27,207 nt of DNA from a virus: positions 1 to 27,207 of IMG/VR virus record IMGVR_UViG_3300009162_000018; one strand, given 5' to 3'. The first letter of the stretch is position 1; every line of letters starts with the position of its first letter. Positions 3,485-26,910 of the stretch are shown piece after piece. A model generated the notes under the pieces. That model ran no database searches, had not been told where the DNA came from, and saw only the letters and a program-made list of their open reading frames with translations. The translations under genes and the position numbers were made by a program.

Positions 3485-3816
3485 GGGATCTCCTTCACGA
3501 TCTCAACAGGTTGGTCCTTGGCCTTGTCTACTGCTGCATTGATCTGCCGGGCCCAGACATTCAGCATACGGGCGCTCTCCTCCACCGAGGCGTAGTCTTC
3601 TTCTGTCCGCTCTTGCCTCAGGAAGTCTTCCGCGTGGAAGAACGCAGTGCCAGGCTTACGGTGGACGTTGTAGACAGCGGCGGTGATGAGGGCTGAACGC
3701 TTCGCGGAGAAACGTTGAAACTCCCGATGCCTCAAGACTACCGCTTCGATCTCGCGAAGGGTGAGATCCCAGAACAACGAATCTGGTATCCCGATCGCCA
3801 TCGCGAGTGCCCACAA
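3481..3816 (-). CDS. tail assembly chaperone, T-type extension (frameshift product of G)
   Basis: This 111-aa frame lies between the chaperone G frame and the tape measure, where lambda-like phages carry gpT. It is in the -1 frame relative to G, and that frame is open without a stop from about 4062 to 3481, so a -1 slip anywhere in the last part of G gives a G-T fusion running to 3481. Read through, the junction region includes an acidic GGDDDASD linker and then WALAMAIGIPDSLFWDLTLRE, the helical 'FWxLTxxE' type segment of tail chaperone extensions. Alternatively it could start on its own at a TTG (3816..3814), which has GAGGAGG eight bases upstream. Both routes are possible; the G-T fusion is the family norm. 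Confidence 0.75.
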   Translation of the reverse strand: MWALAMAIGIPDSLFWDLTLREIEAVVLRHREFQRFSAKRSALITAAVYNVHRKPGTAFFHAEDFLRQERTEEDYASVEESARMLNVWARQINAAVDKAKDQPVEIVKEIP

Positions 3817-3848
3817 CCGCAGGTCCTCCTCGCCGGGAGGGACCTGTA

Positions 3849-4223
3849 CTACGAGCCGGCGGCCTCGCTTGGTGTCGCTGGCGTCGTCGTCTCCGCCGGC
3901 TTCGGAGGGTGGGTCGCCACCTTGGCCTGTCCCCCGAAGGCCTGCACCACCGCGTTCAGTATGTCCTTCAGATTCTCCAGATCCACAAGATCTTCGATCT
4001 GGTCCACGGTAATGGTCGGATCGTCTTCCAGAAGCCCGTAGTAGAGCATCTTCGCGAGCTTCTCATCCGAAAGTCCCTCACTCATTGCCTGATCGCCAAA
4101 CTCCTCACGGATCTTCCGTCTCGTCCGCAACGAGTAGCGCAGATAGCGCGTCCGATCGAGCGCCACCGGCACACCACGCGTCGGGCGTGGTGTGCTCGGT
4201 GGGATCATCTTGTCAGTACTCAT
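3849..4223 (-). CDS. tail assembly chaperone, G-type (124 aa)
   Basis: This small protein lies between the tail tube and tape measure genes, where tail assembly chaperones are found. I start it at ATG 4223, since the preceding GTGGGGGGTGGCC stretch looks like the ribosome-binding region; a GTG at 4238 is the alternative. Residues 20-40 (VALDRTRYLRYSLRTRRKI) and the following acidic helices (SDEKLAKMLYYGLL, TVDQIEDLVDLENL) are typical of phage TAC proteins. The C-terminus is low complexity (P/A/T/E), the usual linker where frameshifting occurs. It is expected to coat the tape measure before tube assembly and is not part of the mature virion. Confidence 0.8.
   Translation of the reverse strand: MSTDKMIPPSTPRPTRGVPVALDRTRYLRYSLRTRRKIREEFGDQAMSEGLSDEKLAKMLYYGLLEDDPTITVDQIEDLVDLENLKDILNAVVQAFGGQAKVATHPPKPAETTTPATPSEAAGS
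3930..3936 (-). other. candidate -1 ribosomal slip site (CGGGGGA)
   Basis: In the G frame the codons TTC GGG GGA CAG contain a run of five G's followed by A. Slipping back one base leaves the A-site tRNA paired with GGG and gives weaker pairing in the P site, so this is an imperfect member of the XXXYYYZ class. It lies about 27 codons before the G stop, inside the region where the -1 frame is open. I saw no perfect heptamer elsewhere in the overlap. This is a candidate only. Confidence 0.35.
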
Positions 4224-4245
4224 GTGGCCACCCCCCACTGTAAGA

Positions 4246-4683
4246 CTAGTGCAGTACGGTCACCGGGCCGGTGACGCGAACCGTGCAGGTCAGCTCCGCC
4301 GCGACATCACCGACCAGATCCAGCGATCCGGTCCACGGCTTCTGCACGTACCCATCGAACGACCAGCTCGCCACCCCTTGAGGAGACGGGCTTGCCGTCG
4401 CAGCGCCAGGGAGCGTGATCACCCATGCGACCACTTCTGAGCCCTGTGCCGCTGCGTAGTTGTTGTCCACGATGAGCTGACCCGCATCGTCCGGATCATA
4501 GCGCACCGTGATCTCTACCGTGCCTGAATCCCGAAGTCCAGCGATGAACTCACGGGCAGTGCTGTCCGTATCGGTCGTCTCCGCTTCTCCCTTGACGCGA
4601 TCCGGGATGCTGACCGAGACCAATCGACCGATCCTGGTACCGCTGACCGTGACGGTAGTCCCGTGCGCAATGAACTTTGACAC
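4246..4683 (-). CDS. major tail tube protein (145 aa)
   Basis: The ATG is at 4683. The protein begins with HGTTVTVSGTRIGRLVSVSIP, a beta-strand pattern seen in lambda gpV-like tube proteins, followed by TTDTDSTAREFIAGLRDSGTVEITVRYDPDD, the loop-strand region typical of tube monomers (a substrate region for hexamer contacts), and closes with WSFDGYVQKP and DLVGDVAAELTCTVRVTG, matching the usual last strands. The size (145 aa) fits a single tube domain with no added Ig-like domain. It sits between the tail terminator and the tail chaperones, the canonical order. It forms the hexameric rings of a non-contractile tail; no sheath gene is present, which supports a siphovirus form. Confidence 0.88.
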   Translation of the reverse strand: MSKFIAHGTTVTVSGTRIGRLVSVSIPDRVKGEAETTDTDSTAREFIAGLRDSGTVEITVRYDPDDAGQLIVDNNYAAAQGSEVVAWVITLPGAATASPSPQGVASWSFDGYVQKPWTGSLDLVGDVAAELTCTVRVTGPVTVLH

Positions 4684-4704
4684 GTGCTCCTCCCCTTGTT
4701 GAGT

Positions 4705-5124
4705 CTACGCGTCCGTCAAGAGACGAAACGCCACTGTGTGCAGCGGCCTGCCTTGCTCGTCAAACCCTGCAAACACCGGTTCGGCAGTCATCGCGCTGAT
4801 CCGTATATAGATCCGGCTTACCAACGCGAACGCCACCTTCCCATGCAGCGCTGTCAGGATCTCTTGCGCCTTGACAAGGCTCGCGTCCCCATCCCATTGC
4901 TTCGCGCGCACCGTCACCAGTACCCCGAGATCCTTCACCGCCACCTCTTGGCCATCACCAGCAATCGACATCTCCGGTGGTGGCCCTCCATCCTCGACCA
5001 TCATCACCATCTGATCCGGCAACGGCGTGTCCATCAACCGTCTCCGGACGAGTCCCCACTGTGTGGAACCTCCCGCGATACCTTGCGTCTGGAGGTAGGT
5101 GTAGACATCCGAGACTGCGCTCAC
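4705..5124 (-). CDS. tail terminator protein (139 aa)
   Basis: It starts with GTG at 5124, overlapping the stop of the gp10-like gene by 4 nt. The N-terminal SDVYTYLQTQG helix, a central strand series (VAVKDLGVLVTVRAKQWDG), and the C-terminal AEPVFAGFDEQGRPLHTVAFRLL are typical of the minor capsid / tail terminator family, in which an 'xxxPxxxGxDExGRxxxxxxFxL' strand pair ends the protein. The protein is expected to cap the tail tube as a hexameric ring and provide the interface with the head-closure ring. The neighbours (gp10-like before, tube after) are in the standard order. Confidence 0.8.
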   Translation of the reverse strand: MSAVSDVYTYLQTQGIAGGSTQWGLVRRRLMDTPLPDQMVMMVEDGGPPPEMSIAGDGQEVAVKDLGVLVTVRAKQWDGDASLVKAQEILTALHGKVAFALVSRIYIRISAMTAEPVFAGFDEQGRPLHTVAFRLLTDA

Positions 5125-5537
5125 TTCTGCGCGACCGCCTTGAGCCCTGCCTCCGCATTGGCCTTCAGCGCTTCCATGGCCGCGCTCCCATCAGGCTGCC
5201 ACCGCTCGATGCCCCGCACCAGATACCGAGGCTCACCAAGCTTGTGGTGATAGTCCATACGCTCGTGCTGTGTCAACGCATATGGAGCCGCTGCACCACC
5301 GAAGCTCAGCTCCACCTCCACCGCGTTGACCTTCTCTACTGCTCCCGTTCCAGCCAACGTCCCAGTGTCTCGCGGGACCCCATGACCAGGCGCGCTCGCC
5401 TTGATGTCGGTCATGATCTCGTTACCGATTTTGAGCAAGCCGCTTCCAGCCCCCTGTTGCAGTACGGTCGAGAATGCCTTGATTCGCGCGGCAGCATCTC
5501 GAAAGCTCTTGGTCGTAGTTCCACTGAGACGCGCCAT
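5121..5537 (-). CDS. HK97 gp10-like neck / tail-completion protein (138 aa)
   Basis: ATG at 5537..5535 overlaps the TAA of the preceding gene (TAATG). The long N-terminal helix (FRDAAARIKAFSTVLQQG), the segment APGHGVPRDTGTLAGTG and the later YALTQHERMDYHHKLGEPRYL match HK97 gp10-like proteins, which typically show 'PVDTGxL..S' and 'YA.xxHE....H..G..KFL' elements. Family members join the neck or help complete the tail between head-closure and terminator. Gene order agrees. The 'VPRDTGTL' loop is complete, so nothing suggests decay. Confidence 0.82.
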   Translation of the reverse strand: MARLSGTTTKSFRDAAARIKAFSTVLQQGAGSGLLKIGNEIMTDIKASAPGHGVPRDTGTLAGTGAVEKVNAVEVELSFGGAAAPYALTQHERMDYHHKLGEPRYLVRGIERWQPDGSAAMEALKANAEAGLKAVAQK

Positions 5538-5863
5538 TACTCCTCCCGAATCTTGAGCCGGACGTGGTCGATCTTCCCCCCTAATGCTTTTCCCACCATC
5601 ACCTCGACCACTATGCCCTTCAACCCATCTAACAAGGTCAAGCGATCCTGTTCACCAGGCATCGGGGATGTGCTCGCCTCGAACCACAACGTCGCCGAGG
5701 TCCTGACCTCACTTCCGTTCCCCAGCTTGACCATCATATCTTCCCGCACCGTCCGCGCCTGCACGTTCACCGCAGTGGCGTAGGTTGGTTTTCCTTGGCC
5801 ATCCACTCCGGTCAACACCTCAAGGCTTACAGTCTCCAACGACCGCCGAATGACGGTGCTCAT
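5537..5863 (-). CDS. head-closure (stopper) protein (108 aa)
   Basis: This 108-aa protein starts at ATG 5863, overlapping the adaptor stop by 4 nt. It is predicted to be a small beta-barrel: ETVSLEVLTGVDGQGKPTYATAVNVQARTV is followed by a strand-loop region (RTSATLWFEAS), then PGEQDRLTLLDGLKGIVVEV. These fit the head-closure family (SPP1 gp16 / HK97-type stopper), with a central 'PGDxxxL.DG..y.v..v' element. The role is to close the portal channel and dock the tail. The assignment rests on size, order and this pattern; another connector name is possible. Confidence 0.7.
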   Translation of the reverse strand: MSTVIRRSLETVSLEVLTGVDGQGKPTYATAVNVQARTVREDMMVKLGNGSEVRTSATLWFEASTSPMPGEQDRLTLLDGLKGIVVEVMVGKALGGKIDHVRLKIREE

Positions 5864-6258
5864 ACGTCTTCAGCGAATCCCTTCCCGACATTCATGATCG
5901 CCGGGATGATGATCGGCTGCGCCTGAGCGACCGGTTTGGGAGCCAAGAAGTGCTGACGCACCTTCCCACTTGAGTCAAAGGACGCCGCGCGCAAGAGATA
6001 GTCCGTCACGTCTGCGTCCGTCTGATAGCTCTCCGAGACATCCCCGATCGTGCTGCTCTTGAGTCCAAGCTCGCGCAGCTTCGTCAGCGCGCAAGCGAGG
6101 TATCGTTCGATGATCTCCATGCGCTCAGCTGAGAGAGCAGCGCTCGTCAACTCCTCTGTCACCCACAGGTTCGCGTCCGCAATGAACGCGTTGATCTGTG
6201 CGGTCGAGAGGGTGGTATCAAGGATCTCCTTGATCGCCGTTGCCGTCGTGCGTGGCAT
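5860..6258 (-). CDS. head-tail adaptor protein (132 aa)
   Basis: The gene starts with ATG at 6258. It is largely helical: TATAIKEILDTTLSTAQINAFIADANLWV, then SAERMEIIERYLACALTKLRELG, then a SSTIGDVSESYQ loop and a C-terminal tail rich in Pro and Ile. Phage head-tail connector (adaptor) proteins share an N-terminal helix bundle with 'YL.ah' style helix 3 and a later '.d..yq' loop. It is the first gene of the connector series and would bind the portal ring. It is separated from the capsid gene by the paralog pair and the lipoprotein, an unusual spacing. Confidence 0.72.
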   Translation of the reverse strand: MPRTTATAIKEILDTTLSTAQINAFIADANLWVTEELTSAALSAERMEIIERYLACALTKLRELGLKSSTIGDVSESYQTDADVTDYLLRAASFDSSGKVRQHFLAPKPVAQAQPIIIPAIMNVGKGFAEDV

Positions 6259-6259
6259 C

Positions 6260-6766
6260 CTACCTCCGCAAGGAAGTGACGATCAACGAGAACGACACGC
6301 TGTCAGCGGTGGCAATGCCACTCGCAAAGTAGAGCGTGTCCCCGTGCTGCTCGAACTTGGCCGCGAAGCTTGGCGTCAACCACGTCCCAGTGGGATGTGG
6401 ATCGGCCAACGTAAAGGAGGATGGATCACCCACGAGCTGAACCATCCGCGCCGTCACCCGCAAGCCGTTCGGCCAGATCACCGCAGCCCCTGCTACGGTA
6501 GAGTCCTCTGGCCATGCTGATGCATGACCACGGAAGAATCCGATGACATCAGCGGTCGTTCCAGCCGCGAACTTGTCCTCTGGTCCCACCTCGAAGGCGA
6601 TGGTCCCTCGCACCGAGTCCAGCCATTCCGTCCATCCAGGATAGGAGTAGTGATAGCTCCATGCCGAGGAGAGGAAGGTGGCGCTGGTGGGCGTTGGCGG
6701 AGTCACTGGATCGCGACCACAGGCCAACACAAGAAGCATCGCTACGAGCATTCTGCTGTACCGCAT
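6260..6766 (-). CDS. putative phage-encoded lipoprotein (168 aa)
   Basis: I start at ATG 6766 because CGAGGG stands seven bases upstream and the N-terminus is then a complete lipoprotein signal: positively charged MRYSR, hydrophobic MLVAMLLVL, and a VLAC lipobox with Cys16, followed by a Pro/Thr linker (PVTPPTPT). The mature part is about 150 residues, beta-rich, with few charges clustered, containing SAWSYHYSYPGW near the N-terminus. Phage lipoproteins in other systems act in superinfection exclusion by masking the receptor, or as lysis outer-membrane spanins; the size and beta-rich body suit exclusion better. It lies between the paralogous small genes and the adaptor, an odd place for a lipoprotein. 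Function is inference. Confidence 0.65.
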   Translation of the reverse strand: MRYSRMLVAMLLVLACGRDPVTPPTPTSATFLSSAWSYHYSYPGWTEWLDSVRGTIAFEVGPEDKFAAGTTADVIGFFRGHASAWPEDSTVAGAAVIWPNGLRVTARMVQLVGDPSSFTLADPHPTGTWLTPSFAAKFEQHGDTLYFASGIATADSVSFSLIVTSLRR

Positions 6767-6777
6767 TGGGGCCCTCG

Positions 6778-7116
6778 CTATCGTGAGCTGTCGTGCCAGT
6801 TCTCTGGCCCTTCGTAGGCTTGAGGCTCTTCGATGCCAAGGAGACGCTTCGCCAAATCGGCGTGCCGTCCCGTCGGATGCAACTTGATGTACAGTTCCGG
6901 CCGCATCGTGATCGGCCACTCCTTGGGGAGCGGCGGCGGAGGAGGCACAACCGGACCCACGACATGATCCTTGGGGTCAGGGGTGTCTCCCACGTAGACG
7001 AGCTTGTACTCAAGCTGTCGGATCTCAAGCGGAGAAGGCTCGAACACCGATCCCGGAGGCACGATGCTTCCGTCCGATCGATGATGTGGAGCCCCGATGT
7101 TGCGGTAGTAGCTCAT
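6778..7116 (-). CDS. hypothetical protein, paralog B of a tandem pair (112 aa)
   Basis: ATG at 7116 overlaps the TGA of the upstream paralog (ATGA). The protein opens with MSYYRNIGAP and carries a conserved C-terminal block IKLHPTGRHADLAKRLLGIEE at residues 72-92. The upstream gene has the same block (SRYPKGRHADLAKQLL) and a similar N-terminal YRN.G.P, so these two genes are diverged duplicates. The middle has a run of six prolines. No metal site, signal or membrane segment is seen. It lies between capsid and connectors, where a small capsid-associated or connector-assisting protein could fit. I do not recognise the family. Confidence 0.7.
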   Translation of the reverse strand: MSYYRNIGAPHHRSDGSIVPPGSVFEPSPLEIRQLEYKLVYVGDTPDPKDHVVGPVVPPPPPLPKEWPITMRPELYIKLHPTGRHADLAKRLLGIEEPQAYEGPENWHDSSR

Positions 7117-7454
7117 GCCGCGACCTCCTCAGTGAGGAGCTGCTTGGCCAAATCTGCGTGACGTCCCTTGGGATACCGGGATAGGTAAAGGCGAGGCGAG
7201 ATCTTGAGCGGCCACTCAGGAGTATTGGGCTGACCGTCAGTCCCTGCATCCCCTTCAGCACCGAGAGGCTTGGGTTCTTGGGTGTCCTCCCGCAGCCAGA
7301 TCAACCGAACACGAAGTTCTGGATCAGACTGGATATGGACATGCTCTCGGGGCGTCACCTCGACGAGGCCCCCATGGGGCACCACCTGAGCCGAAGCCGC
7401 AGGTGCGCGCCGCCATGGAAGGCCATCGTTTCGGTACATCAACTTCTCAGGCAT
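7113..7454 (-). CDS. hypothetical protein, paralog A of a tandem pair (113 aa)
   Basis: I choose ATG 7454 (MPEKLMYRNDG) because it falls just after the capsid gene stop (7463) and because the longer reading back to 7580 lies inside the capsid gene. The product shares with its downstream neighbour the N-terminal YRN.G.P and the C-terminal PRLYLSRYPKGRHADLAKQLL. The central part (EVTPREHVHIQSDPELRVRLIWL) has strands and charged residues. Both copies are intact and coupled by a 4-nt overlap, so both are likely expressed with the capsid gene. The role is unknown. Confidence 0.72.
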   Translation of the reverse strand: MPEKLMYRNDGLPWRRAPAASAQVVPHGGLVEVTPREHVHIQSDPELRVRLIWLREDTQEPKPLGAEGDAGTDGQPNTPEWPLKISPRLYLSRYPKGRHADLAKQLLTEEVAA

Positions 7455-7462
7455 CAGCTGTC

Positions 7463-8476
7463 CTAGATGAGCAACACGATGCCGTTGATCGTTGCGCCAG
7501 CCGAGGTCTGGATGGACTTGATCTGCGGCCCACCGACCATGATCACACGGAACAGCTGGACGAACGGGTTCTTCTCCCACTGGACGGTCGTGACATCCTG
7601 AGCCAGCGTCAGGTCGATCACGTCTTCCGTCATCTGCACCAGCACGGCCGTATCGTTCGGCAGCGCGTCCAAGGGACGAACGGCCGCGATGTCCGGGAAG
7701 GCGAGAATCCGCTCCAGGAACGTCCGGTCACCCTTGCTCGTGCTGTAGTCTTGCTGCAGGGGAGCCCAGTAATCCTTCGAGACGTACAGGAAGAACGGCC
7801 CGAAGAGGTTGCTGTTGTACCCCGTGGTCAACATCTTGATGACGTCCCCGACGATGTCCGGCGAGGAACCATCCCACACCGCAGACGCACCTGAGATCGT
7901 CAAGCGATTCGGTGCATTCACGATGCCCGGAATGCTCTGACCATCGGTGCCGTTGGTGGGATTGCTGCCCGGCCCACCCGTGAACCCGTTGGCGCAGAGA
8001 TCCTGAAGCTTGTCCCGCACCTTCCGCGCGGCGATGGCAGCCGCTGAAACATCCAGCGGGTCCCCCCGACGGCCAGAGGCGTCCAGCTGCCTCCAGTTGA
8101 ATTGGAAGTCCTTCGCGATCACCGGAACAGGAATCACGTCACGCAAGAAAGCCGGACGGTCGCCAGTCGGCGCCGTGTCTCCATCGAAGGAGACCTCGGC
8201 CGCATCCATGTCAGACACGCGCTCGGTCACCCGAAGCAGAGTGCCCAACGAGACGGGCGTGACCAAGCCCCGGCCCCGAAGGTCATCCACCACAGTCAAC
8301 CGTTCACGCATCACGTCATTGACGCGGGTGTCGATCTGCTCCCACTCGTCCTTCCGAAGCGTGGCGTTCCCGGCCATACTGCGGACTTCGTTCGTCCCCA
8401 GTACAGGCCGCAGTTGCGAGAGATCCGTGATACCCATACGAAGGATCTCGTCCGCCCCAATCAGCTCGTAACCCAT
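7463..8476 (-). CDS. major capsid protein, encapsulin-like HK97 fold (337 aa)
   Basis: ATG at 8476 has a strong GAGGAGGGAAGG ribosome site. It is placed right after a decoration gene. Residues about 100-160 (LRDVIPVPVIAKDFQFNWRQLDASG followed by GDPLDVSAAAIAARKVRDKLQD) and the 240-330 region (YVSKDYWAPLQQDY, LERILAFPDIAAVRPL, EDVIDLTLAQDVTTVQWEKN, FRVIMVGGPQIKS) resemble the encapsulin/Linocin M18 family and the related phage capsid group. This pattern covers the P-domain, spine helix and A-domain. It assembles the icosahedral shell. An N-terminal processing region of about 90 residues precedes the fold; it may be cleaved by the upstream protease, but the site is not evident. An encapsulin compartment is ruled out by the tailed-phage neighbours. 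Confidence 0.85.
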   Translation of the reverse strand: MGYELIGADEILRMGITDLSQLRPVLGTNEVRSMAGNATLRKDEWEQIDTRVNDVMRERLTVVDDLRGRGLVTPVSLGTLLRVTERVSDMDAAEVSFDGDTAPTGDRPAFLRDVIPVPVIAKDFQFNWRQLDASGRRGDPLDVSAAAIAARKVRDKLQDLCANGFTGGPGSNPTNGTDGQSIPGIVNAPNRLTISGASAVWDGSSPDIVGDVIKMLTTGYNSNLFGPFFLYVSKDYWAPLQQDYSTSKGDRTFLERILAFPDIAAVRPLDALPNDTAVLVQMTEDVIDLTLAQDVTTVQWEKNPFVQLFRVIMVGGPQIKSIQTSAGATINGIVLLI

Positions 8477-8515
8477 GTGCCCTTCCCTCCTCAGTTGTTG
8501 ATGAGCGCCACGCTA

Positions 8516-8938
8516 CTAGACGATCTCGATGCGGCAGCGCTTCGGTGAGCCACCACCCGTGACCGCCTCCAACGCGATCCCGACGTGCGTCCCTTCCACC
8601 GGGGTGGACGCGACCTGCAGCGTCCCGTTCCCGTTGCTCTCCAAGAAGTCGCCGATGGCAGCCGACTCCCCCGTGCCCAGCAGCGCATAGACTTCAGCGC
8701 CGGGAGCAAAGACACCATACTGGACCGTGTCGTTGGCGTCGTACGCATCGTCAACGCCTTGCCCGATCAGGTCATTCTCCAGCGCGAAGGCCCTCTGGGC
8801 CGCCGTGCCGAGTCCTGCATGGACCCGAAGCTTCCCGGTGCTCATGATCTCCACCAGGTGACCCGGGGTGATAGCCGCGTTCGCCAGACGTTCCTTACGC
8901 TCGAAGCGGCCTTTCAGTGCAATCGTGTTCTTCGCCAC
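8516..8938 (-). CDS. capsid decoration / cement protein (140 aa)
   Basis: This starts with GTG at 8938 behind AGGAGG. It sits directly upstream of the major capsid gene, the usual place for decoration proteins. The sequence has AITPGHLVEIMSTGKLRVH, YGVFAPGAEVYALLGTGESAAIGDFLESNGNGTL and GIALEAVTGGG elements, a beta-barrel pattern shared with DUF2190-like capsid stabilising proteins (GD.LE...DG.L...). It would bind capsid three-fold or quasi-three-fold sites and stabilise the shell. It contains no obvious sugar site. Family-level confidence is good; details of oligomer are not readable from sequence. Confidence 0.8.
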   Translation of the reverse strand: MAKNTIALKGRFERKERLANAAITPGHLVEIMSTGKLRVHAGLGTAAQRAFALENDLIGQGVDDAYDANDTVQYGVFAPGAEVYALLGTGESAAIGDFLESNGNGTLQVASTPVEGTHVGIALEAVTGGGSPKRCRIEIV

Positions 8939-8976
8939 AGCTCATGCCCTCCTGATGATTGGTACTGAAACCCCAA

Positions 8977-9008
8977 GGGGGTGCGGGCACTAGTTCCCGC
9001 TGACCCCC
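8977..9008 (-). promoter_or_regulatory. strong stem-loop between scaffold/protease and decoration genes
   Basis: The arms are GGGGGT (8977-8982) with ACCCCC (9003-9008) and GCGGG (8983-8987) with CCCGC (8996-9000), an 8-base loop and a 2-nt bulge: 11 paired bases. On the minus strand the stem is followed by TTGGGGTTT, a weak T-rich tail. It lies in an 80-bp gap, large for this window, so it may be a partial terminator, attenuator or RNA processing site that sets capsid gene expression above that of the protease. No experiment is implied. Confidence 0.45.
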
Positions 9009-9018
9009 ACCGCCTCGA

Positions 9019-10719
9019 CTACTTCTCAGCCGGCTTGTTGTAGTACGACACCGGCTTCATGTACCGCGTCTCCGGCTGCGTCCCCTGAGGACCACCCTTG
9101 CCAGCGTAGTTCTCAGTGGCGACCATGTTCGCGATCTTCCGCAGCTCGTCGACGGGCTTGGACTCCAGCTCGGCGGCGGTAAAGGTCACGCGAGGATTGC
9201 CAGCCAGCTCATGCACGAGGGCCGTCCGTTCCCGCTCCCTCTCCTCGACCGCGGGAGCCGTCAGACGCTCCACGTTGCCGACCTTGTCGGTCAGCGCCGT
9301 GATCGCCCGCTTCAGCCCCGCAACCGTGGCATCCCCCGCCTCCAGCTGCTGCACCTTCTCGTTCAACGAGCTGACCGTACGGGTCAACTCCGCAATGGCC
9401 GACAGAATCTCGGCCTGGCCCTGCGTTTCGCTGCCAGCCATGTTGACTTCCTCCGTGTGTTGAGTCGGCTCCACCACTTCCGGTGGAGCTGGGTCCGTGT
9501 TCGCCGCCGTCGCGCCCACGGGTACATACGTCGTCATCCGCCGCACAAGCGCCGGTTCGGCGAACGTCATCTTACCGTTCTCAGACATCGTGTACTCTGA
9601 ACGGTAATACTCTGCGCCCTTGGGCTGAGCACCCATAGGGGTACTGAACCAAAAGACTACGTAGTGCTGATCGCTGTAGAGATCGCAAACGATCACCTCA
9701 CGATCCGAGGCACCAAACTTTTCCTGCATCGCCTCGCGGACCATCTGCATCCGCTCTTGATCACTCGGCATCAGTTCCTGGAGCGCCATCATCTCGCGCG
9801 CCATGTTGTGCGAGGCCATCTCCTCGTAGGTCATCTTCTCCGAGTGGGCCTCCGCCACCGCGAACAGCGCGGCTGCACGTTCAAAGATTTTCTTGATCAA
9901 GGACGGAGTCTCCTCTGCGGTTGGTGTTACATCCGTCGGCTGCGCCTGTGTAGACACAATGTCCTCCTGATGATTGCCCCGGCATGGACATTGAGCATTG
10001 ACCCCAAGTCCACAGCCATCATGCACTGAACACGCTCCAGTCATCTCGGTCGAGATCACGAGATGATCTGCGCCGAGGGGGTGCAGCACGTATTCATACA
10101 ACTCCCCTCCCGCGTTCCCTGCTTGCTGTTCCGGGATGGTGGAGAATCCAGTCGAGAGTTCGACAGGGTGGCCGGCGTCCACGGCGGCGAGTACGTCCGA
10201 GAACCCTGGCACGACCGACGCGCGCTCAACGTCCAGCCACACTTCTGCCGAAAGACGGGCGACCCCATCTGGTCCCTCATCCGCATGCGCGCCAAAGATC
10301 CATCCCACACACCGCTCGTTCATGATCTCCGGAGTCCGGCCGCTCATCGGCTCCCCAGCGTGCGTCGGATGCGGTCCCACGAGAACCGGGATGTTGTTCC
10401 ACATCTCGGCCCAGTCACGGTTGATCGCTTCAGCGGGAAGGTAGGTCCGACCCAGATTGTTCTGGAGCACTTGAGCACGAACGAGGACAGCAGGGACGAT
10501 GCGGAACGCGCGACCCATCCAAGTAACTCGCCGCGCCACACTCGACGAGGCAGCGCGAAGGATCAGGAAGTGCGTGGCCTCTTGATGCGCGCGCGTGTAG
10601 GTGCTACTGCAGAACGCGTACCGCTGCTCGGAGTCAGGGAAGCTACGGTTCGCTTCACCGTCCCCCATGCACCGACTCACGAATGCTTCGCGTCCTTCCC
10701 CACTGCGCGGTCTCGGCAT
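9019..10719 (-). CDS. prohead protease with scaffold region (DUF2213-like, 566 aa)
   Basis: I start at ATG 10719 (MPRPRSGEGREAF), since this begins a short Cys-containing domain (residues 1-50) often placed before phage proteases, and the longer frame back to 10833 crosses a strong stem-loop. The protease domain, about 70-240, has the DUF2213 signs: VLVGPHPT with probable catalytic His117, the strand GWIFGAHADEGPDG, and PVELSTGFST with probable Ser189. A HPLGADHLVISTEMTGACSV segment follows. The C-terminal half is acidic and helical, with a heptad-like coiled coil at about 440-500, typical of a fused scaffold. It would mature the capsid and be degraded itself. It is separated from the portal by about 15 kb, which is unusual. 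Confidence 0.85.
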   Translation of the reverse strand: MPRPRSGEGREAFVSRCMGDGEANRSFPDSEQRYAFCSSTYTRAHQEATHFLILRAASSSVARRVTWMGRAFRIVPAVLVRAQVLQNNLGRTYLPAEAINRDWAEMWNNIPVLVGPHPTHAGEPMSGRTPEIMNERCVGWIFGAHADEGPDGVARLSAEVWLDVERASVVPGFSDVLAAVDAGHPVELSTGFSTIPEQQAGNAGGELYEYVLHPLGADHLVISTEMTGACSVHDGCGLGVNAQCPCRGNHQEDIVSTQAQPTDVTPTAEETPSLIKKIFERAAALFAVAEAHSEKMTYEEMASHNMAREMMALQELMPSDQERMQMVREAMQEKFGASDREVIVCDLYSDQHYVVFWFSTPMGAQPKGAEYYRSEYTMSENGKMTFAEPALVRRMTTYVPVGATAANTDPAPPEVVEPTQHTEEVNMAGSETQGQAEILSAIAELTRTVSSLNEKVQQLEAGDATVAGLKRAITALTDKVGNVERLTAPAVEERERERTALVHELAGNPRVTFTAAELESKPVDELRKIANMVATENYAGKGGPQGTQPETRYMKPVSYYNKPAEK

Positions 10720-10741
10720 CCACTGACCCCCATAACGAAGA

Positions 10742-10774
10742 CACCCCCGGAGATCTCTGTGATCTCCGAGGGTG
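10742..10774 (-). promoter_or_regulatory. long stem-loop upstream of the protease gene
   Basis: Arms 10742-10755 and 10761-10774 pair with a single mismatch (13 of 14 positions) around a TCTGT/ACAGA loop. Transcribed on the minus strand it is followed by TCTTCGTT, then the protease start region. It lies in the longest non-coding gap in the window (about 118 bp). It may be a terminator for the glycan block with some read-through, or a leader structure that protects or controls the capsid mRNA. Confidence 0.5.
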
Positions 10775-10831
10775 AGCTTGACGGTGGCAGCCACTCGGCT
10801 GGGGACCGTCTGCAAGGCCCTATGGTGAAGC

Positions 10832-10860
10832 AATATACTATCGTGCGGGTATTGTGCTAC
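10832..10860 (-). promoter_or_regulatory. possible sigma70-type promoter for the capsid module
   Basis: On the minus strand a TATATT (10837..10832; 5 of 6 to TATAAT) is spaced 17 nt from GTAGCA (10860..10855; 3 of 6 to TTGACA). The stretch is AT-rich in a GC-rich window and stands at the end of the MAF-like gene, just before the largest gap and the stem-loop. The weak -35 makes this a low-confidence call. Confidence 0.25.
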
Positions 10861-11476
10861 CCCCTAGCCATTCTGTAGTAGGCTCGCCAAACAGCTCTCT
10901 GGTCTTCCCAGACATGGACCTTACGTTGTCCCCAAAGCGTTCCCTGCATTGTCCCCACGCCCTCCAATGGGCGTTGGCTGCCACCCAGACCACGTGGAAG
11001 CTCTCTTTCGTCTCCGCAAAATGCGGGGTCTGTGTCATGGGAATCCCCATCAACACGACTCGGGTACATCCAAGCTCCAGTGCGACTTGCGCCGCGAACA
11101 TCCCGCTTGATCCACCACCCCAGGCCGAGAGGCGGTAGTCCGGAAACTGATCGTCGGGCTTGCAGCCCCAGGTCACGTAGCCGTCCTCGAAGCCTTGTTC
11201 TTTCCGCAAGGCAATCCACTTCTCGAACTTGTAGGCGTGAAGGGAGACCCAGTGATCGAGGTCCCGCGGCCAGTGGCATCCGATGTCGTTGGCCGCGATC
11301 ACCAGTCCATCCCACGGCTTTCCGTAGATCTTCTCGAAGGCGAGGATGTCCTCCCACACGCAGTACGCCCCACCCAAACACAGCGCCCATTCAGGGTGGA
11401 GACAGGAGAGACGTCGCGTCTTGTGGTCTTTGATCCACGTCAAATCTGAGAACGCGTTGACGTAAGGCTTGGTCAC
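10838..11476 (-). CDS. MAF/DUF115-like Rossmann-fold protein, possible glycan enzyme (212 aa)
   Basis: It starts with GTG at 11476 (GTGA overlap with the 80-aa gene). The core motif is GGGSSGMFAAQVALELGCTR followed by VVLMGIPM, a Gly-rich loop, helix, strand and 'GxD/P-M' pattern found in DUF115/motility-accessory-factor-like and sialyltransferase-type proteins, which bind nucleotide sugars. Earlier residues include AANDIGCHWPRDLDHWVSLH, resembling the 'N...hp..D.wvs.h' element of this fold. It is the last gene of the glycan block. The most likely role is sugar transfer or sugar-nucleotide handling; catalytic residues cannot be set without alignment. Confidence 0.6.
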   Translation of the reverse strand: MTKPYVNAFSDLTWIKDHKTRRLSCLHPEWALCLGGAYCVWEDILAFEKIYGKPWDGLVIAANDIGCHWPRDLDHWVSLHAYKFEKWIALRKEQGFEDGYVTWGCKPDDQFPDYRLSAWGGGSSGMFAAQVALELGCTRVVLMGIPMTQTPHFAETKESFHVVWVAANAHWRAWGQCRERFGDNVRSMSGKTRELFGEPTTEWLGGSTIPAR

Positions 11477-11715
11477 TCTTTTGAATCTCCTGCAAGCACT
11501 TTGGCCACATCCTTCGCGGCCTCGCTGGACAGCATCACGATGCGCTGTGTTCCATCCATGATCGTCTGTCCCTGATCGTCCGCGTCAGAGAAGATCAAGA
11601 CGTACCGTGCCACACTCTCCTCGACCTGATCAAGCGGATACAGCCACCGCTCTACCGCGAAGACGATGCCTGGTCCACGGTATCGCGTGAGGACAGTTCG
11701 GATGGGCTTGGCCAT
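11473..11715 (-). CDS. small hypothetical protein in glycan block (80 aa)
   Basis: ATG 11715 overlaps the TGA of the membrane gene upstream (ATGA), so the longer reading to 11787 is rejected. The product begins AKPIRTVLTRYRGPGIVFAV and has strands (ARYVLIFSDADD) then a helix with a charged end (SSEAAKDVAKVLAGD). It looks like a compact alpha/beta protein. No known motif is seen. Coupled on both sides, it is probably translated with its neighbours. Confidence 0.6.
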   Translation of the reverse strand: MAKPIRTVLTRYRGPGIVFAVERWLYPLDQVEESVARYVLIFSDADDQGQTIMDGTQRIVMLSSEAAKDVAKVLAGDSKE

Positions 11716-12026
11716 CAGAACAGCACGATCGCAAGCACACCCATCGCGGTCAAGATTCCGACCTCGCGCTGCGCCAGATCTTTCCACTCCAGCCCGTTCG
11801 GGTCAAACCATCCCTCGTACAGTAGGGAGAGCCCATGCGTCCAGACGCCGCCCACCACGAAGAAGCCGAGATCGAGCGGCATCGGAATGACGATACTGAC
11901 GACCCAGAGAAGTCCGTAGCCCAACGCCGCTGTAAGCCATCCGCTCACGAACTCAACGCCCCACGATGGGATCTTGGCCAACAGGCGCTGAGCCCAAGAT
12001 GGGAGCCACTGCCACCAGTTCACCAT
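11715..12026 (-). CDS. small membrane protein (103 aa)
   Basis: The product starts with a Trp-rich amphipathic helix (VNWWQWLPSWAQRLLAKIPSW) and then has hydrophobic segments at about residues 28-49 (WLTAALGYGLLWVVSIVI), 53-70 and 88-103 (VGILTAMGVLAIVLF), so two to three membrane passes. The neighbours are sugar and methyl-transfer genes, so a membrane anchor or flippase-like helper is possible. A holin is an alternative from size and topology, but no endolysin is next to it. It is unidentified. Confidence 0.6.
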   Translation of the reverse strand: MVNWWQWLPSWAQRLLAKIPSWGVEFVSGWLTAALGYGLLWVVSIVIPMPLDLGFFVVGGVWTHGLSLLYEGWFDPNGLEWKDLAQREVGILTAMGVLAIVLF

Positions 12027-12034
12027 GAGACCCC

Positions 12035-12634
12035 CTACTGTGTGGTGATGAGGAGACTACCGCGCAGTCCGTCATGCACGAACTCGGCGGTCCAGCTTGG
12101 GTTCTGTGTCAGGACCTCGTCGCATGCTTCCCGTATGTCCTTCCCAACACCGTAGTCGTCAACCAATATCCACTTTGCCACGCTGCACAACTTCAGGTCG
12201 TGGAAGCAACCCTCGAAGCTGTGGTCCGCGTCCACGTGCGCCATCGTGGTCTCCCACGACCACGGGGTCATCGCAAATCGTTCAAGCTTCTGAATGTCGT
12301 GCGCCAAGAACGAGACATGCGCGAACCGCTTCAGGATCTTGTGTGCGTGCGCGATGTATTGATCACCCTGCTCCGCGTCGCACATCCCGTTGTCGATTCC
12401 AAGATAGTACGCCTCGGGCACTGCCGAGAGGAACGCGAAGGCGGAGTATCCAGCACGGACCCCAAGCTCCACGATGTGGGTGGGCTTCAACCGCGCGGCT
12501 GTCTCATACTTCATCTCGTAGTAGTGGAGCGAGAGATCATCGACCACGAACTCATCCCCTGGATACCAGTTGTCTACCAGAGCATGAATCCACGGATCGC
12601 CCCCGATCACCCGCTCCCCTCTCCACCGTGTCAT
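12035..12634 (-). CDS. class I SAM-dependent methyltransferase (Methyltransf_24 type, 199 aa)
   Basis: I start at ATG 12634, which overlaps the TGA of the membrane gene (ATGA); the longer frame to 12697 lies within it. Motif I is HIVELGVRAGYSAFAFL (about residues 53-70), followed by YYLGIDNG, where Asp ends strand 2 and binds the SAM ribose. The later AHVDADHSFEGCFHDL matches the 'DgdHsYegv..Dl' signature of Methyltransf_24, which often acts on sugars or small O-linked groups. A cytoplasmic enzyme is expected. Substrate is unknown; sugar O-methylation in the adjacent glycan pathway is the leading idea. Confidence 0.82.
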   Translation of the reverse strand: MTRWRGERVIGGDPWIHALVDNWYPGDEFVVDDLSLHYYEMKYETAARLKPTHIVELGVRAGYSAFAFLSAVPEAYYLGIDNGMCDAEQGDQYIAHAHKILKRFAHVSFLAHDIQKLERFAMTPWSWETTMAHVDADHSFEGCFHDLKLCSVAKWILVDDYGVGKDIREACDEVLTQNPSWTAEFVHDGLRGSLLITTQ

Positions 12635-13179
12635 CGTGGCCGCTGTCCCAACACGATCGCCCGCATGTGCTCCGCTTGCTGGAAGACAATGAGCCACATG
12701 ATAGCAAAGATCGGCTGCCCAGCCCCGATGAGTCCCAACCAGCCTGATGCGCCAATGTTCTCCAGCGTGGTGAATCCGAGGACTCGCGAGTTGAACAGGT
12801 CCGCGAACAGGGGACGCCCGTGGAAGATGTTGTCGGTGAGGTTATGCTCGATGTGCAGCGTGATCTGAAGCCACACGATGGCGAAGGCGGGGATGCCCAC
12901 CCCAAAGATGTCGAACTGATAGAACGGCCACAGGAACAACCACACCAACCAGAGCCCGGTCTCGAGCAGCGCGTTGACCGCGATCCTTCCGTAGGGAATG
13001 CCCCTGAGATTGAACAGGCTGTCGTGGTTCTTCACGTTGTCCGCGATCACGTGCTCCACGAAAAAGCCGATCGGAAGGAGGGCCCCACCCAAGAATGCTC
13101 GTCCAGCACGGACCAGCGCTAACCACGCGATCAGCGCTGCATCCTCGACCAGCGTGAATACCAGTACCCGTACGAACAT
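12631..13179 (-). CDS. multi-pass membrane protein with three Glu-His repeats (182 aa)
   Basis: I prefer ATG 13179, which has AAAGGAGG four bases upstream; ATG 13200 overlaps the previous stop and is the alternative. Five or so hydrophobic segments are seen: about residues 5-24, 28-43, 66-87, 92-109, 143-165. Three ends carry a Glu-His pair (E42-H43, E111-H112, E170-H171), and the first two continue as EHVIADN and EHNLTDN. Each pair follows a helix rich in I/V/L/F/W, so the protein seems to be a tandem internal duplication. The conserved acidic-His pairs at membrane ends could bind metal or be catalytic. I do not recognise a family; the glycan block suggests a membrane step in sugar handling. 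Confidence 0.68.
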   Translation of the reverse strand: MFVRVLVFTLVEDAALIAWLALVRAGRAFLGGALLPIGFFVEHVIADNVKNHDSLFNLRGIPYGRIAVNALLETGLWLVWLFLWPFYQFDIFGVGIPAFAIVWLQITLHIEHNLTDNIFHGRPLFADLFNSRVLGFTTLENIGASGWLGLIGAGQPIFAIMWLIVFQQAEHMRAIVLGQRPR

Positions 13180-13196
13180 TCTGCCTCCTTTGAGAA

Positions 13197-14783
13197 TCAT
13201 CGTCCCATCACCTTGCGTGCCTGATCGACCACGATCTCAGCGGTAAGCCCAGCCGTGTCCAAGGCGACGTAGGGAGAATCAGGCGGAGCCGTGTTCGTCC
13301 ACATCGCACTCTTGAAGTACCGATTCCACACCAAGGCCGTCGGGATGTTGAGCACGGGGCCGAGGAGGGTGTTCCCAGCTGGCCAGCCGTACACCAACGA
13401 CGCCCCCAAGATAGCCCCCAACATCTGGTCGAAGCTTGTCTGCGCGATCAGGTTAACCCAGTCGGAGTTGCTCTGCGCACGGTAGGCCATCTGATCACCG
13501 AGCGAGTTCTTGTCCCACTCCGCGCCGATCATCACGATGCGGAGCCCAAGCTCCGTGTTGAGCTTGACACACGAGGTCCAGATGCCCTCCGGACCGAACT
13601 CGTTGAGCCAGTTCGTGTACATCCCGCTCAACGTGAAGAAGCACACTGCGTAGGGTCCACCAGCCTCCAGCTTGGCCTGAAACTCCTGCGCCTCCTTGGA
13701 GACGTGAATCTTCGGGTACCAGTCGCACCCGTACTGTGGATCGACCTCGGCAAGGCTCTTGCCTGCTCTCAGGATCCCGTTGTAGGCGATGAAGTAGTCC
13801 ACCCCCAACACCCCAGGGAAGACCGTCCGTCCGTCCGTCATGTAGGCTTCGTGAAAGATCCGATCGCGGTGCGAGACCTTGTAGCCTGCTGAGTGGACGA
13901 AGGAGACCGTCTTGAGAAACGGCTCAGTTCGCTTGGGCCCCATGTCCTGCACCCAGAGGTCGGGCATCTCCAACCCGTGCGCTTTCAGGAACCCCGGGAG
14001 CTTCACCAGTACCCAGTAAGAGTCCCCGATGCCTGCTGGGACGAGGATCTGCGGGCGGGTCTGCTGCATCGCTTCCGCAACCATCACGATCTTCGACTCG
14101 ATCGGATGGTCCCAATGAGTCACGAGAAATCCGGCCTGCCGCAGCAGATGATTGAGCTGCTGCTCATCCAAACACCAGAGGTGCTCCACCGGCTTCCAGT
14201 GGTGGCGGCCGGACTCGTGCCAGAAGCGAGGAAAGTCCACGATCAGTTTCCCACCCGGCTTGAGGATGCGACGGATCTCCTTCAGCATGGCGATCGGATC
14301 CGGGATGTGTTCCAGCACATCATGAATCGTGATCACGTCGAAGTCGTCGGTAGGAAAGGCCACCTCCGCCAACGCCTCAGCATAGATCCGTGGGCCATCA
14401 CTCTGTTGAGCAAGATCCTGACCCCACGCGTCGAGCTTTCCGTGTGTCACCGCGGCGTTGACGAACGCCCCGTTTCCTGCTCCAACGTCAAGGAGCTTGA
14501 TGCCTTCCGGGAGTTTGTAGGCTGCAAGGCGCTTGAGCGCAACCTCGTAGTCGTGGTCATAGGTATGCTGGTAGATCCCGTCCCTCGCTCGGCTTGACAT
14601 CTTGGCTGGCTGCGGGAAGTAGACCTCTCGATACCACTCAGCCAGCTGCACCTCTGTCATGCGTACCTCTTGTCGCACGATCGAGCACTTGTGACACCGG
14701 AGCACCGGGATGCCGAACTGGCTGTCCGCAAGACCACCTGAAGCACCGCATACGCAGTTCGGTAACAGCTGTTCCGTCGTCAC
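13197..14783 (-). CDS. methyltransferase fused to a GT9-like glycosyltransferase (528 aa)
   Basis: It starts with GTG 14783 (GTGA overlap). Residues 10-33 hold four cysteines (CVCG ... CHKC), a probable zinc ribbon. Residues 60-240 form a class I methyltransferase: motif I LLDVGAGNGAF (about 97-107), an acidic strand end at FDVITIHDVLEHIP, then ILKPGGKLIVDFPRF, the typical Methyltransf_11/23 order. From about 260 the second domain begins QILVPAGIGDSYWVLVKLPG, the 'GIGD' loop of GT9 heptosyltransferase-like enzymes, and ends with ILGASLVYGWPAGNTLLGPV and LNIPTALVWN, a nucleotide-sugar binding style segment. It would transfer and methylate sugars in one chain. Acceptor and donor are unknown. 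Confidence 0.8.
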   Translation of the reverse strand: MTTEQLLPNCVCGASGGLADSQFGIPVLRCHKCSIVRQEVRMTEVQLAEWYREVYFPQPAKMSSRARDGIYQHTYDHDYEVALKRLAAYKLPEGIKLLDVGAGNGAFVNAAVTHGKLDAWGQDLAQQSDGPRIYAEALAEVAFPTDDFDVITIHDVLEHIPDPIAMLKEIRRILKPGGKLIVDFPRFWHESGRHHWKPVEHLWCLDEQQLNHLLRQAGFLVTHWDHPIESKIVMVAEAMQQTRPQILVPAGIGDSYWVLVKLPGFLKAHGLEMPDLWVQDMGPKRTEPFLKTVSFVHSAGYKVSHRDRIFHEAYMTDGRTVFPGVLGVDYFIAYNGILRAGKSLAEVDPQYGCDWYPKIHVSKEAQEFQAKLEAGGPYAVCFFTLSGMYTNWLNEFGPEGIWTSCVKLNTELGLRIVMIGAEWDKNSLGDQMAYRAQSNSDWVNLIAQTSFDQMLGAILGASLVYGWPAGNTLLGPVLNIPTALVWNRYFKSAMWTNTAPPDSPYVALDTAGLTAEIVVDQARKVMGR

Positions 14784-15034
14784 ACAATTCTCCGGGTTGA
14801 GGCGTACTCACCAAAGGCCACACCAGCCACCGTCCAGATCAGTCCCCACCATCCGATGTCGATCAACAACAAGACCGAAGCTCCCCCCAACAACGCGTGG
14901 AAGGCTCCAAGCTCCACCACGCGTTTCCGCCCGATGCCTGTCTGTCTCCACGTGTCCCGTGCGTCCAGATACCGTCCCGCATAGTAGGTGATCGCGGCAT
15001 CAGAGAGAAAGAGCGCGAGTCCGAGAAAGATCAT
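14780..15034 (-). CDS. small membrane protein (84 aa)
   Basis: The ATG at 15034 and the stop at 14780 are both in 4-nt overlaps. Hydrophobic segments are at residues 1-18 (IFLGLALFLSDAAITYYAG) and 47-75 (LLGGASVLLLIDIGWWGLIWTVAGVAFG), separated by a charged stretch (RDTWRQTGIGRKR). A two- or three-pass membrane protein is likely. It lies between the GT8-like and MT-GT9 genes. A lipid-linked sugar or anchoring role is only a guess. Confidence 0.6.
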   Translation of the reverse strand: MIFLGLALFLSDAAITYYAGRYLDARDTWRQTGIGRKRVVELGAFHALLGGASVLLLIDIGWWGLIWTVAGVAFGEYASTRRIV

Positions 15035-15162
15035 CGCTCGATCTTGATCGGGAAGGAGGCGCGAAAATTGATGTGCGGGACAAGGATCACATATTCGATC
15101 ACAGTGCGTTCAGCAAGCCAGATCCTCATGGCGTCGATCTGCACCGGTCGTGGTATGATCAT
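15031..15162 (-). CDS. very small hypothetical protein (43 aa)
   Basis: ATG at 15162 overlaps the TGA of the glycosyltransferase gene (15159..15161), and its TGA overlaps the next ATG (15031..15034). This exact double coupling is strong support for a gene despite its length. The longer frame starting at 15447 is a shadow within the glycosyltransferase gene. The protein reads IIPRPVQIDAMRIWLAERT and continues with strands (VIEYVILVPHINF). No function can be assigned. Confidence 0.5.
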   Translation of the reverse strand: MIIPRPVQIDAMRIWLAERTVIEYVILVPHINFRASFPIKIER

Positions 15163-15803
15163 CGCCGAAGCCACTCCGCGTAGGCCCAGCCACACTCCTT
15201 GTTGTTCGGCTTGGGGTAGCCATGGAAGCATACGACCCGTGCATTGGTCGGCATCCCGAGGCGGGCATGGACCTTGTAGCTGACGATCTGCTCCGGGAAG
15301 AGATCCTGCAGGCGATTGACGTGCTCCGGATACTGCGTGGAGAGGGAGTCGATCACGTTTCCATCTCCGTGATAGTTCCGCATCCAGTAGTCCGGCTGTC
15401 GAACCCAGTTGTCCCAGATCCATGCGCTCTGGGGGCCGGGGGTCCACATCATCATCCCAGACTGACCGTTGTAGGGACGATAGAAGTCTGAGAGGAGTGC
15501 GAGCGGATCACCACTGTAGCTTGCGATCTCGGTCAGGTCTCCGACGATCAACGTGTCGAGATCAAGGTAGAGCACGGGACCATTGAACAACCCAGGACGA
15601 AACAGCTCCATCTTGGCCCACCATCCTGGCCACCGGTGATCGAGCTTGTTGCCCCACGGACCGAAGCAGTCGAGATCGGAGAGCACACGAAACTCCCACT
15701 GGATTTCCAGTGGGAGATGGCGATGCAGCCCACGCTTGAGCGCCCAGACCCATTCTGGGGCGTAGACCCCGCCGGAGCGCAGTACGCAGGCGATCGTGAT
15801 CAT
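15159..15803 (-). CDS. GT8-like glycosyltransferase (214 aa)
   Basis: ATG 15803 overlaps the TGA of the BppU-like gene. The protein has the layout of retaining GT-A enzymes: an N-terminal strand MITIACVLRSGG, then a loop DLDCFGPWGNKLDHRWPGWWAKMELFR, then GPVLYLDLDTLIVGDL at about residues 75-90 with the DLD metal-binding motif, a YNGQSGMMMWTPG acceptor-site region, and a late HGYPKPNN with the conserved C-terminal His. It is a single catalytic domain with no membrane segment, so it is cytoplasmic and uses a UDP- or GDP-sugar. It is the first gene of the glycan block, directly behind the fibre genes. Confidence 0.85.
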   Translation of the reverse strand: MITIACVLRSGGVYAPEWVWALKRGLHRHLPLEIQWEFRVLSDLDCFGPWGNKLDHRWPGWWAKMELFRPGLFNGPVLYLDLDTLIVGDLTEIASYSGDPLALLSDFYRPYNGQSGMMMWTPGPQSAWIWDNWVRQPDYWMRNYHGDGNVIDSLSTQYPEHVNRLQDLFPEQIVSYKVHARLGMPTNARVVCFHGYPKPNNKECGWAYAEWLRR

Positions 15804-21661: not shown

Positions 21662-21957
21662 GTCAGCTCCGCTGGTACGTAGAACCCATACTGAGTGGGC
21701 GCAGCGTCAACAGCCGCCCAGATCTTCTTGACCACCTCAGCCTGATATGGATCGCGCGGGAGCACTCTCGTCCGTCCGAGCACGGCATCCATGAGCGCAT
21801 TCCGCATGACCTCCTCCGGCACTGCCGCGTCTCGCACCTCCAGCGGCACGAAGGCAAGCGTCTGTGACGGAGCCTTGTTCCGGATCTTGGCGAGATCATC
21901 CACCGAGATCGGTTGAGCAGTTTCAGAGATCCGAACGTCTTCCTGTGCGTCACTCAT
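21658..21957 (-). CDS. hypothetical protein directly downstream of the MuF-zeta gene (99 aa)
   Basis: ATG 21957 overlaps the TGA of the large MuF-zeta gene by 4 nt. The protein is acidic to neutral and mainly helical (VDDLAKIRNKAPSQTLAF; PEEVMRNALMDAVLGR; QAEVVKKIWAAVDAA). Its size and coupling make it a candidate antitoxin or immunity partner for the zeta-like domain, but the known epsilon family is not recognisable. Equally it may be a small head protein. Confidence 0.65.
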   Translation of the reverse strand: MSDAQEDVRISETAQPISVDDLAKIRNKAPSQTLAFVPLEVRDAAVPEEVMRNALMDAVLGRTRVLPRDPYQAEVVKKIWAAVDAAPTQYGFYVPAELT

Positions 21958-24545: not shown

Positions 24546-24585
24546 TGTCGTCCTTCTGGCACGAACCGTCGCGAGTCCGATCAAG

Positions 24586-24900
24586 CTAGACCTTTCGCTT
24601 GGCTTCCGAGTACCCTCTCCAGGCCGCCGGAGAGGTCTTGGGGTTGGACCAGATCGTCCAGGAGATCCTGAGCGGTCCGAGGTGGACCGTGATTCCATAA
24701 CGGGCGTGAGACATGGAGGTCGACCCGGGGCTGCTGCTATCGGCCCAGTCCCCTGCCAATCCGAACACCCAGGAGAGGAGCCACACCGACGCACCCCACT
24801 GATACCCACCCCAGGTCTCGAAGAAACAGCCTCCGCCGAGACGGTTGATCCACCACTGCGTCGTACGGAAGCGTGGGTGATTCTGTTCGGGATTGATCAT
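24586..24900 (-). CDS. Trp-rich hypothetical protein (104 aa)
   Basis: ATG 24900 overlaps the previous TGA; the stop is at 24586, just before the MuF gene. It has ten Trp in 104 residues, with a hydrophobic stretch (WGASVWLLSWVFGLAG) that may be membrane-associated, and later a strand pair (ARYGITVHLGPLRISWTIW). I do not recognise a family. The high Trp content is unusual next to its neighbours. Confidence 0.6.
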   Translation of the reverse strand: MINPEQNHPRFRTTQWWINRLGGGCFFETWGGYQWGASVWLLSWVFGLAGDWADSSSPGSTSMSHARYGITVHLGPLRISWTIWSNPKTSPAAWRGYSEAKRKV

Positions 24901-26909: not shown

Positions 26910-26910
26910 G

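Follow-up and report, generated by a model that had tools for sequence, protein, structure and literature searches.

A predicted lipoprotein gene inserted among head-neck genes of an uncultured phage, with a possible role in superinfection exclusion

Phage-encoded envelope lipoproteins

Envelope lipoproteins of the general kind described here are already known in other phages, and for those that are not enzymes, closure of the receptor is a well-supported role in diderm hosts. Llp of phage T5, grouped with the Cor family of T1 and phi80, is a lipoprotein of about 61 residues encoded beside the receptor-binding gene pb5; it binds FhuA on the periplasmic side, with an inward folding of two external loops (PMC9586334). 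Early synthesis in the course of infection is described for many exclusion proteins, and a reference cited in the same article calls Llp in its title ‘expressed early’ (PMC9586334). Rtp45, a protein of about 6 kDa, exerts its effect on LptD from the periplasm, the stated benefit being that phages are spared adsorption to infected cells or post-lysis fragments (PMC12685063); exclusion genes of this group lie directly downstream of gpJ (PMC9586334). In the mEpimmI coliphages, a lipoprotein gene was found in 40 of 48 genomes by means of the strict lipobox [LVI][ASTVI][GAS]C, each time among the clustered structural genes; two of these lipoproteins, Lpp021 and Lpp010, excluded phages when expressed, although Lpp010 failed against mEp013 (PMC11893012). 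Ltp of the Streptococcus thermophilus phage TP-J34 comes from a Gram-positive host, is encoded in the lysogeny module, is transcribed in the prophage, and excludes phage by blocking DNA injection; it was argued to be a moron, with an own promoter and terminator named as evidence of this character (PMC3952083). The outer-membrane spanins Rz1 and LysC are likewise Pro-containing lipoproteins, with mature lengths of 46-74 residues and genes overlapping those of their partners Rz and LysB (PMC3091744).

The following sections concentrate on a putative lipoprotein gene in a virus record of 27,207 bases (IMG/VR IMGVR_UViG_3300009162_000018), denoted as the window throughout. Its product is, like Llp, a phage lipoprotein for which the outer membrane is the expected location, but it has 153 mature residues, is encoded between head genes, and looks late. 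Relation to Llp, Cor or Rtp45 was not detected by PHROG searches, tblastn against phages, or above-chance Pfam or PDB matches. It shares with Rtp45 and the exclusion lipoproteins of LptD-targeting siphophages the proximity to virion genes, yet it is larger than Rtp45, and its gene is not directly downstream of gpJ. As with Lpp021 and Lpp010, the gene resides inside a structural cluster; in view of the mEpimmI genomes, the claim of the original prediction that structural modules rarely carry lipoproteins does not hold. In contrast to the Lpp proteins, the window lipoprotein fails the strict lipobox, and no relative was found among the phages searched. With Ltp it has in common that it is a phage lipoprotein of moron-like character, and with the spanins that it is a Pro-containing one, whereas no partner gene was seen beside it.

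Gene neighborhood and coding evidence

All recognized structural genes of the window are encoded on the minus strand, and all coordinates in this section refer to this strand. In the direction of transcription, the portal gene (25434-26939; Pfam 6e-49) is followed by a MuF-Zeta gene (21954-24809), encoding a MuF head protein with a C-terminal Zeta-toxin domain (PF06414, 5.5e-23), a cargo block, a pre-capsid gene with weak matches only (9019-10833), a putative decoration gene labeled by its position and without Pfam match (8516-8938), the gene of the major capsid protein (7463..8476; DUF6260/Linocin-like, PF19774 9e-28), fr1 (7113..7442), fr2 (6778..7116), the lipoprotein gene (6260..6766), and a DUF4054-like head-tail gene of 132 aa (5860..6258), which gave weak profile matches, with PF13262 below the cut-off. 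Further 3', the genes of a head-tail connector (5537..5863; phrog_3881 1e-5), a gp10-like minor head/neck protein that served as query for relatives (5121..5537; phrog_556 5.5e-4), a tail terminator or head-tail connector-like protein (4705..5124; phrog_2595 2e-6, Pfam below cut-off), and the major tail protein (4246..4683; phrog_158 4.7e-14) are found, then those of the tape measure and distal tail proteins. The original prediction had placed the lipoprotein gene between small post-capsid genes and the adaptor. This placement is right, with fr1/fr2 upstream and the DUF4054-like gene downstream; the strand, absent from that prediction, is minus.

Some features of the surroundings deserve mention in their own right. 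The tandem paralogs fr1 and fr2 behind the capsid gene (6778-7442) share 34% identity and are unnamed in Pfam and PHROGs; fr2, of 112 aa, gave no match in searches of either collection and carries the tail motif WPxxMxPExYxxLHPxGxHAxLA. The MuF-Zeta fusion is a possible virion-delivered toxin. Within the cargo block, which separates the MuF gene from the pre-capsid genes, the stretch 10838-15803 encodes a glycosyltransferase (phrog_1962), two methyltransferases, and a protein with a weak sialyltransferase-like match, together with hydrophobic ORFs noted by eye. A 746-aa protein (16138-18378), without Pfam match, contains about 17 repeat units of the type LTPSAVTVAFTVATPTVVKGTR at a spacing of ~23 residues. 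A 22-nt stretch in the lipoprotein gene (6639-6660) recurs nearly identically in the gene of this repeat protein (17669-17690), and both copies encode SYHYS. An integrase was not recognized among the window proteins scanned.

The lipoprotein ORF comprises 168 codons and starts with an ATG at 6766, according to the ORF list and its translation. The 11-nt gap between the fr2 stop and this start (6767..6777) contains, by sequence inspection, a ribosome-site-like GAGGG 5 nt 5' of the ATG. At the other end, the stop codon lies 1 nt ahead of the ATG of the DUF4054-like gene, whose GGAGG is located inside the last two lipoprotein codons. The frame has the best coding score among the six, is free of internal stops, and shows a synonymous-codon z of 6.1, compared with 3.9-14 for 27 other genes tested; GC (0.604) and GC3 (0.70) are similar to those of the neighbors. 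The ORF is a real gene with phage-like codon use, adapted to the genome of the window.

Promoter-like sites are missing from 3800-9100 (0, against a shuffle mean of 1.2), which is weak evidence of absence as the scan covered sigma-70-type consensus sites only, and the nearest terminator-like site is at 4729-4747. Since an own promoter or terminator was not detected, the gene is probably co-expressed late with the virion operon into which it is translationally knit, and the late expression claimed in the original prediction is therefore likely, as judged from sequence.

The type II signal

The N-terminus reads MRYSRMLVAMLLVLA, directly followed by Cys, and is laid out as a type II signal in which MRYSR precedes ten hydrophobic residues (MLVAMLLVLA) and the predicted lipid-bearing Cys16, with a Pro/Thr linker at about residues 17-28 (GRDPVTPPTPTS) thereafter; the signal itself spans residues 1-15. 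A PROSITE-type lipoprotein rule requires K or R within residues 1-7, no D, E, R or K in the six residues preceding the box, and a Cys at 15-35. This rule selects the lipoprotein alone among the 182 window ORFs of at least 50 aa, bearing out the signal with VLAC lipobox and Pro/Thr linker that the original prediction had described. Codon shuffles of the gene pass this rule in 144 of 100,000 cases, and in 6 of 100,000 when a hydrophobicity cut-off is added; in 60 composition-matched random windows, a mean of 2.9 ORFs pass, reduced to 0.08 by the same cut-off.

This looser rule replaced a scan with the strict lipobox as printed in PMC11893012, which none of the 182 ORFs passes; VLAC fails because of the Leu at -2. 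Among 19 lipoproteins predicted by our own rule within 250 kb of a Gemmatirosa plasmid, four show Leu at this position, and it is therefore not disqualifying. Two control plasmid stretches yielded only four lipoprotein signals, too few for a comparison with this plasmid. Beyond the signal, the mature protein of 153 residues has neither a second Cys nor a transmembrane segment (highest 19-residue hydropathy 1.42). Lipidation and cleavage are predicted to occur at Cys16. In E. coli, the residue at +2, Asp or another, decides on the target membrane. The Gly found here would fit sorting to the outer membrane by this rule, which may not be that of the host.

An insertion between fr2 and the DUF4054-like gene

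Relatives were collected from viral contigs with the capsid protein and its alignment, with the gp10-like alignment (best 80 of 252), and with a DUF4054 alignment, which retrieved mostly the same contigs; their genes were labeled via iterated profile searches. The close set comprises 29 distinct contigs (L003-L009, L020, L032-L058). Five of these (L033, L040, L045, L056, L058) are cut or unlabeled at the junction and were dropped from the count, leaving 24 with a DUF4054-like gene and its upstream neighbor; they include five near-identical sets and thus amount to about 18 distinct sequences.

In 19 of the 24 contigs, an fr gene is located directly upstream of the DUF4054-like gene, at a spacing of -23 to +1 nt. 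The capsid gene takes this position in four others (L009, L034, L035, L037), 84-138 nt away, and in L020 the 358 nt upstream of the DUF4054-like gene contain an fr-like ORF. In the window, fr2 and the DUF4054-like gene are separated by 519 nt. Homologs at the same position, whose search the original prediction had proposed, did not turn up: a lipoprotein is found at this junction in none of the 24 contigs (about 18 distinct). Since it is missing from all of them, and the flanking genes overlap or abut in 19, the lipoprotein gene is a lineage-specific, moron-like insertion among the relatives sampled. It shows the extra gene between neighbors adjacent in relatives that characterizes morons; an own promoter and terminator and a deviating base composition, assessed by the sigma-70 and intrinsic-terminator scan and by GC and GC3, were not found.

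Other small genes occur nearby in the close contigs. Between the connector and gp10-like genes, L003 and L004 carry an ORF of 78 aa that contains a strongly hydrophobic segment (L003:10398-10634), and L006 has at the same site an ORF of 130 aa whose hydrophobic segment is weaker (L006:3680-4072). A gene with a soluble-looking product of about 160 aa separates the capsid gene from the fr genes in contigs such as L051-L054.

Searches for homologs and fold

Comparison of the lipoprotein with PHROGs, NCBIfam and PADLOC gave no match; matches to capsid proteins in PDB (E 0.2-0.5) and to Pfam lci (0.11) are at chance level. By tblastn, no phage sequence matched at E values of 1 or below; three sub-threshold matches (E 0.4 to 9) came from plasmids, where the N-terminal 36 residues gave two further hits regarded as chance (E 3 and 5). 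The mature N-terminus is reminiscent of lipoproteins of Gemmatimonadota; one Gemmatirosa plasmid contained no match. Pattern and tblastn searches returned three pattern stretches in viral contigs and 50 in genome contigs, with no relative of the lipoprotein among them. A six-frame search of 14 records containing related loci gave hits in three at E <= 1 (best 0.02). The corresponding search of genomes sampled from the phyla of G010, G011, G013 and G012 gave hits at E <= 0.001 in 0 of 199, 0 of 200, 1 of 132 and 0 of 198 genomes, respectively. The single genome match (E 4.6e-4 within its own genome, equivalent to about 0.06 across all 132) was judged to be chance; it spans 66 residues at 31% identity inside a 373-residue ORF with a lipoprotein-like start, scores E 5e-4 against 18,746 frames in a sensitive comparison, and is nonetheless the best lead to a homolog. 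The blank genome searches show little, because none of the searched genomes is known to hold a homolog. By these comparisons the lipoprotein is an orphan: among the protein families, structures, phages, plasmids, viral contigs and genomes searched, none provided a credible relative.

The fold prediction that had been proposed did not yield a usable fold, two single-sequence AlphaFold2 models computed without homologs reaching mean pLDDT values of 36.7 and 36.0. Both low-confidence models suggest a beta meander, and the remainder of the protein is perhaps mainly beta.

Possible functions

That the gene encodes an inserted, exported lipoprotein is highly likely. By precedent, superinfection exclusion appears to be its likeliest single function. 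An inserted lipoprotein serving exclusion or protection of progeny is given a probability of about 0.36. In this proposal, a phage lineage would have acquired a moron-type accessory gene between fr2 and the DUF4054-like gene, and the lipoprotein would be synthesized late, alongside the virion proteins. Export via Sec would be followed by lipidation and cleavage at Cys16 and by anchoring in the envelope, presumably on the periplasmic face of the outer membrane, should the host be a diderm that sorts lipoproteins as E. coli does. The C-terminal domain might then bind an envelope receptor or entry component and thereby prevent productive adsorption of phages of the same kind, both to the cell that makes the lipoprotein and to the debris of that cell. 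The precedents supporting this proposal are the lipoproteins encoded in the structural cluster of mEpimmI phages and the receptor closure from the periplasm by Llp and Rtp45.

Several observations speak against exclusion. The gene looks late, while many exclusion proteins are described as early; that Llp, one of the precedents, belongs to these lowers the confidence in exclusion. The mature protein has 153 residues, whereas small size (about 60 residues in Llp, about 6 kDa in Rtp45) marks this class. The gene lies among head-neck neighbors and not beside a gene of a receptor-binding protein or gpJ; the sequence of the window stops close to the distal tail gene, and tail-tip genes beyond it fall outside. 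Further objections are that a homolog of known function and a confident fold were not obtained, that Leu occupies -2, and that the clear lipoproteins near these genes in wider relatives look lysis-linked. The specific version, in which a late-made family unrelated to and larger than Llp and Rtp45, encoded in a head-neck operon of a phage of a non-coliphage host, would close or mask the phage receptor from inside the outer membrane and spare newly released virions from debris, is doubtful.

Alternatively, the protein may be a host-derived or host-benefiting envelope lipoprotein, i.e. a moron that does not exclude phage but gives the cell, whether infected or lysogenic, an altered surface, stress tolerance or way of handling nutrients. 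This reading is unlikely but worth keeping in view: the gene is an orphan insertion at the fr2/DUF4054-like junction; the glycosyl- and methyltransferase genes of the window represent other accessory cargo; the signal and the P/T/A-rich mature start are like those of some of the 19 predicted Gemmatirosa-plasmid lipoproteins, a resemblance only, as Gemmatirosa is not established as the host; and integrase-family matches in two of twelve related records (those of L043 and L052; all twelve are possibly fragments) suggest that some relatives may be temperate. Against it count the failure to detect a promoter and a terminator of its own, both of which are taken as signs of a moron in the work on Ltp (PMC3952083), and the absence of a homolog from the sampled genomes, none of which is known as host. 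A role as envelope lysis helper, in the form of an outer-membrane spanin-like or peptidoglycan-linked lipoprotein, is improbable, although the lipoproteins of wider relatives point in this direction. Among the best 80 of 252 gp10-like relatives, seven loci contain a clear lipoprotein ORF. Six of these (L069, L093, L099, L100, L102, L103) encode transglycosylase-type lipoproteins on the opposite strand, with the SLT domain confirmed in just two of them (L069, L093) and an L093-type N-terminus shared by the other four; in the seventh, L087, a Pro/Thr-linker lipoprotein on the same strand starts 18 nt after an M15 peptidase ORF. Rz1 and LysC, as Pro-containing lipoproteins (PMC3091744), fit this role as well, but no enzyme domain was found in the window lipoprotein, which also lacks the C-terminal transmembrane segment of an outer-membrane spanin (maximum hydropathy 1.42), an overlapping inner-membrane coiled-coil partner was not seen by eye among the window ORFs, and neither endolysin nor holin was recognized among the window proteins scanned.

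A virion or assembly protein, whose N-terminus serves another purpose or whose mature domain would serve as a decoration of the particle or as a membrane tether for heads under assembly, is similarly improbable; the location among neck genes and the tight translational coupling would agree with it, while the full export signal and the absence of a counterpart at the junction in all 24 related contigs of similar gene set argue against it. Finally, that the ORF is no gene or a decaying one is scarcely credible: a convincing homolog is absent from every collection searched, but the best-of-six frame, the z of 6.1, the ribosome site, the stop/start coupling, and the lack of internal stops all contradict this reading.

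Some signals near these loci were set aside. Lipobox signals in L126 and in four of the 80 gp10-like loci (L033, L036, L085, L096) are unconvincing, as is one in L027 that depends on an internal start. Five named phage regions and 16 loci from a DUF4054 scan gave only two lipoprotein signals: one arises from an internal start codon within a Brevundimonas phage gene two positions ahead of the capsid gene, the other from an implausible frame. As a separate observation, the L087 region (78-2594), upstream of neck genes, encodes the M15 peptidase, the lipoprotein of 397 aa with a long Pro-Thr linker, and proteins that appear hydrophobic by eye.

Biological significance

The lipoprotein gene of the window is confirmed; it is an accessory gene of a kind that is ordinary in phages, and its sequence is an orphan. 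If superinfection exclusion is not its function, it represents one further lineage-specific accessory gene of an uncultured phage. If exclusion holds true, a sequence family without detected relatives would join the receptor-masking phage lipoproteins, and its apparently virion-timed, not early, synthesis would test whether exclusion lipoproteins can mainly shield progeny from debris.
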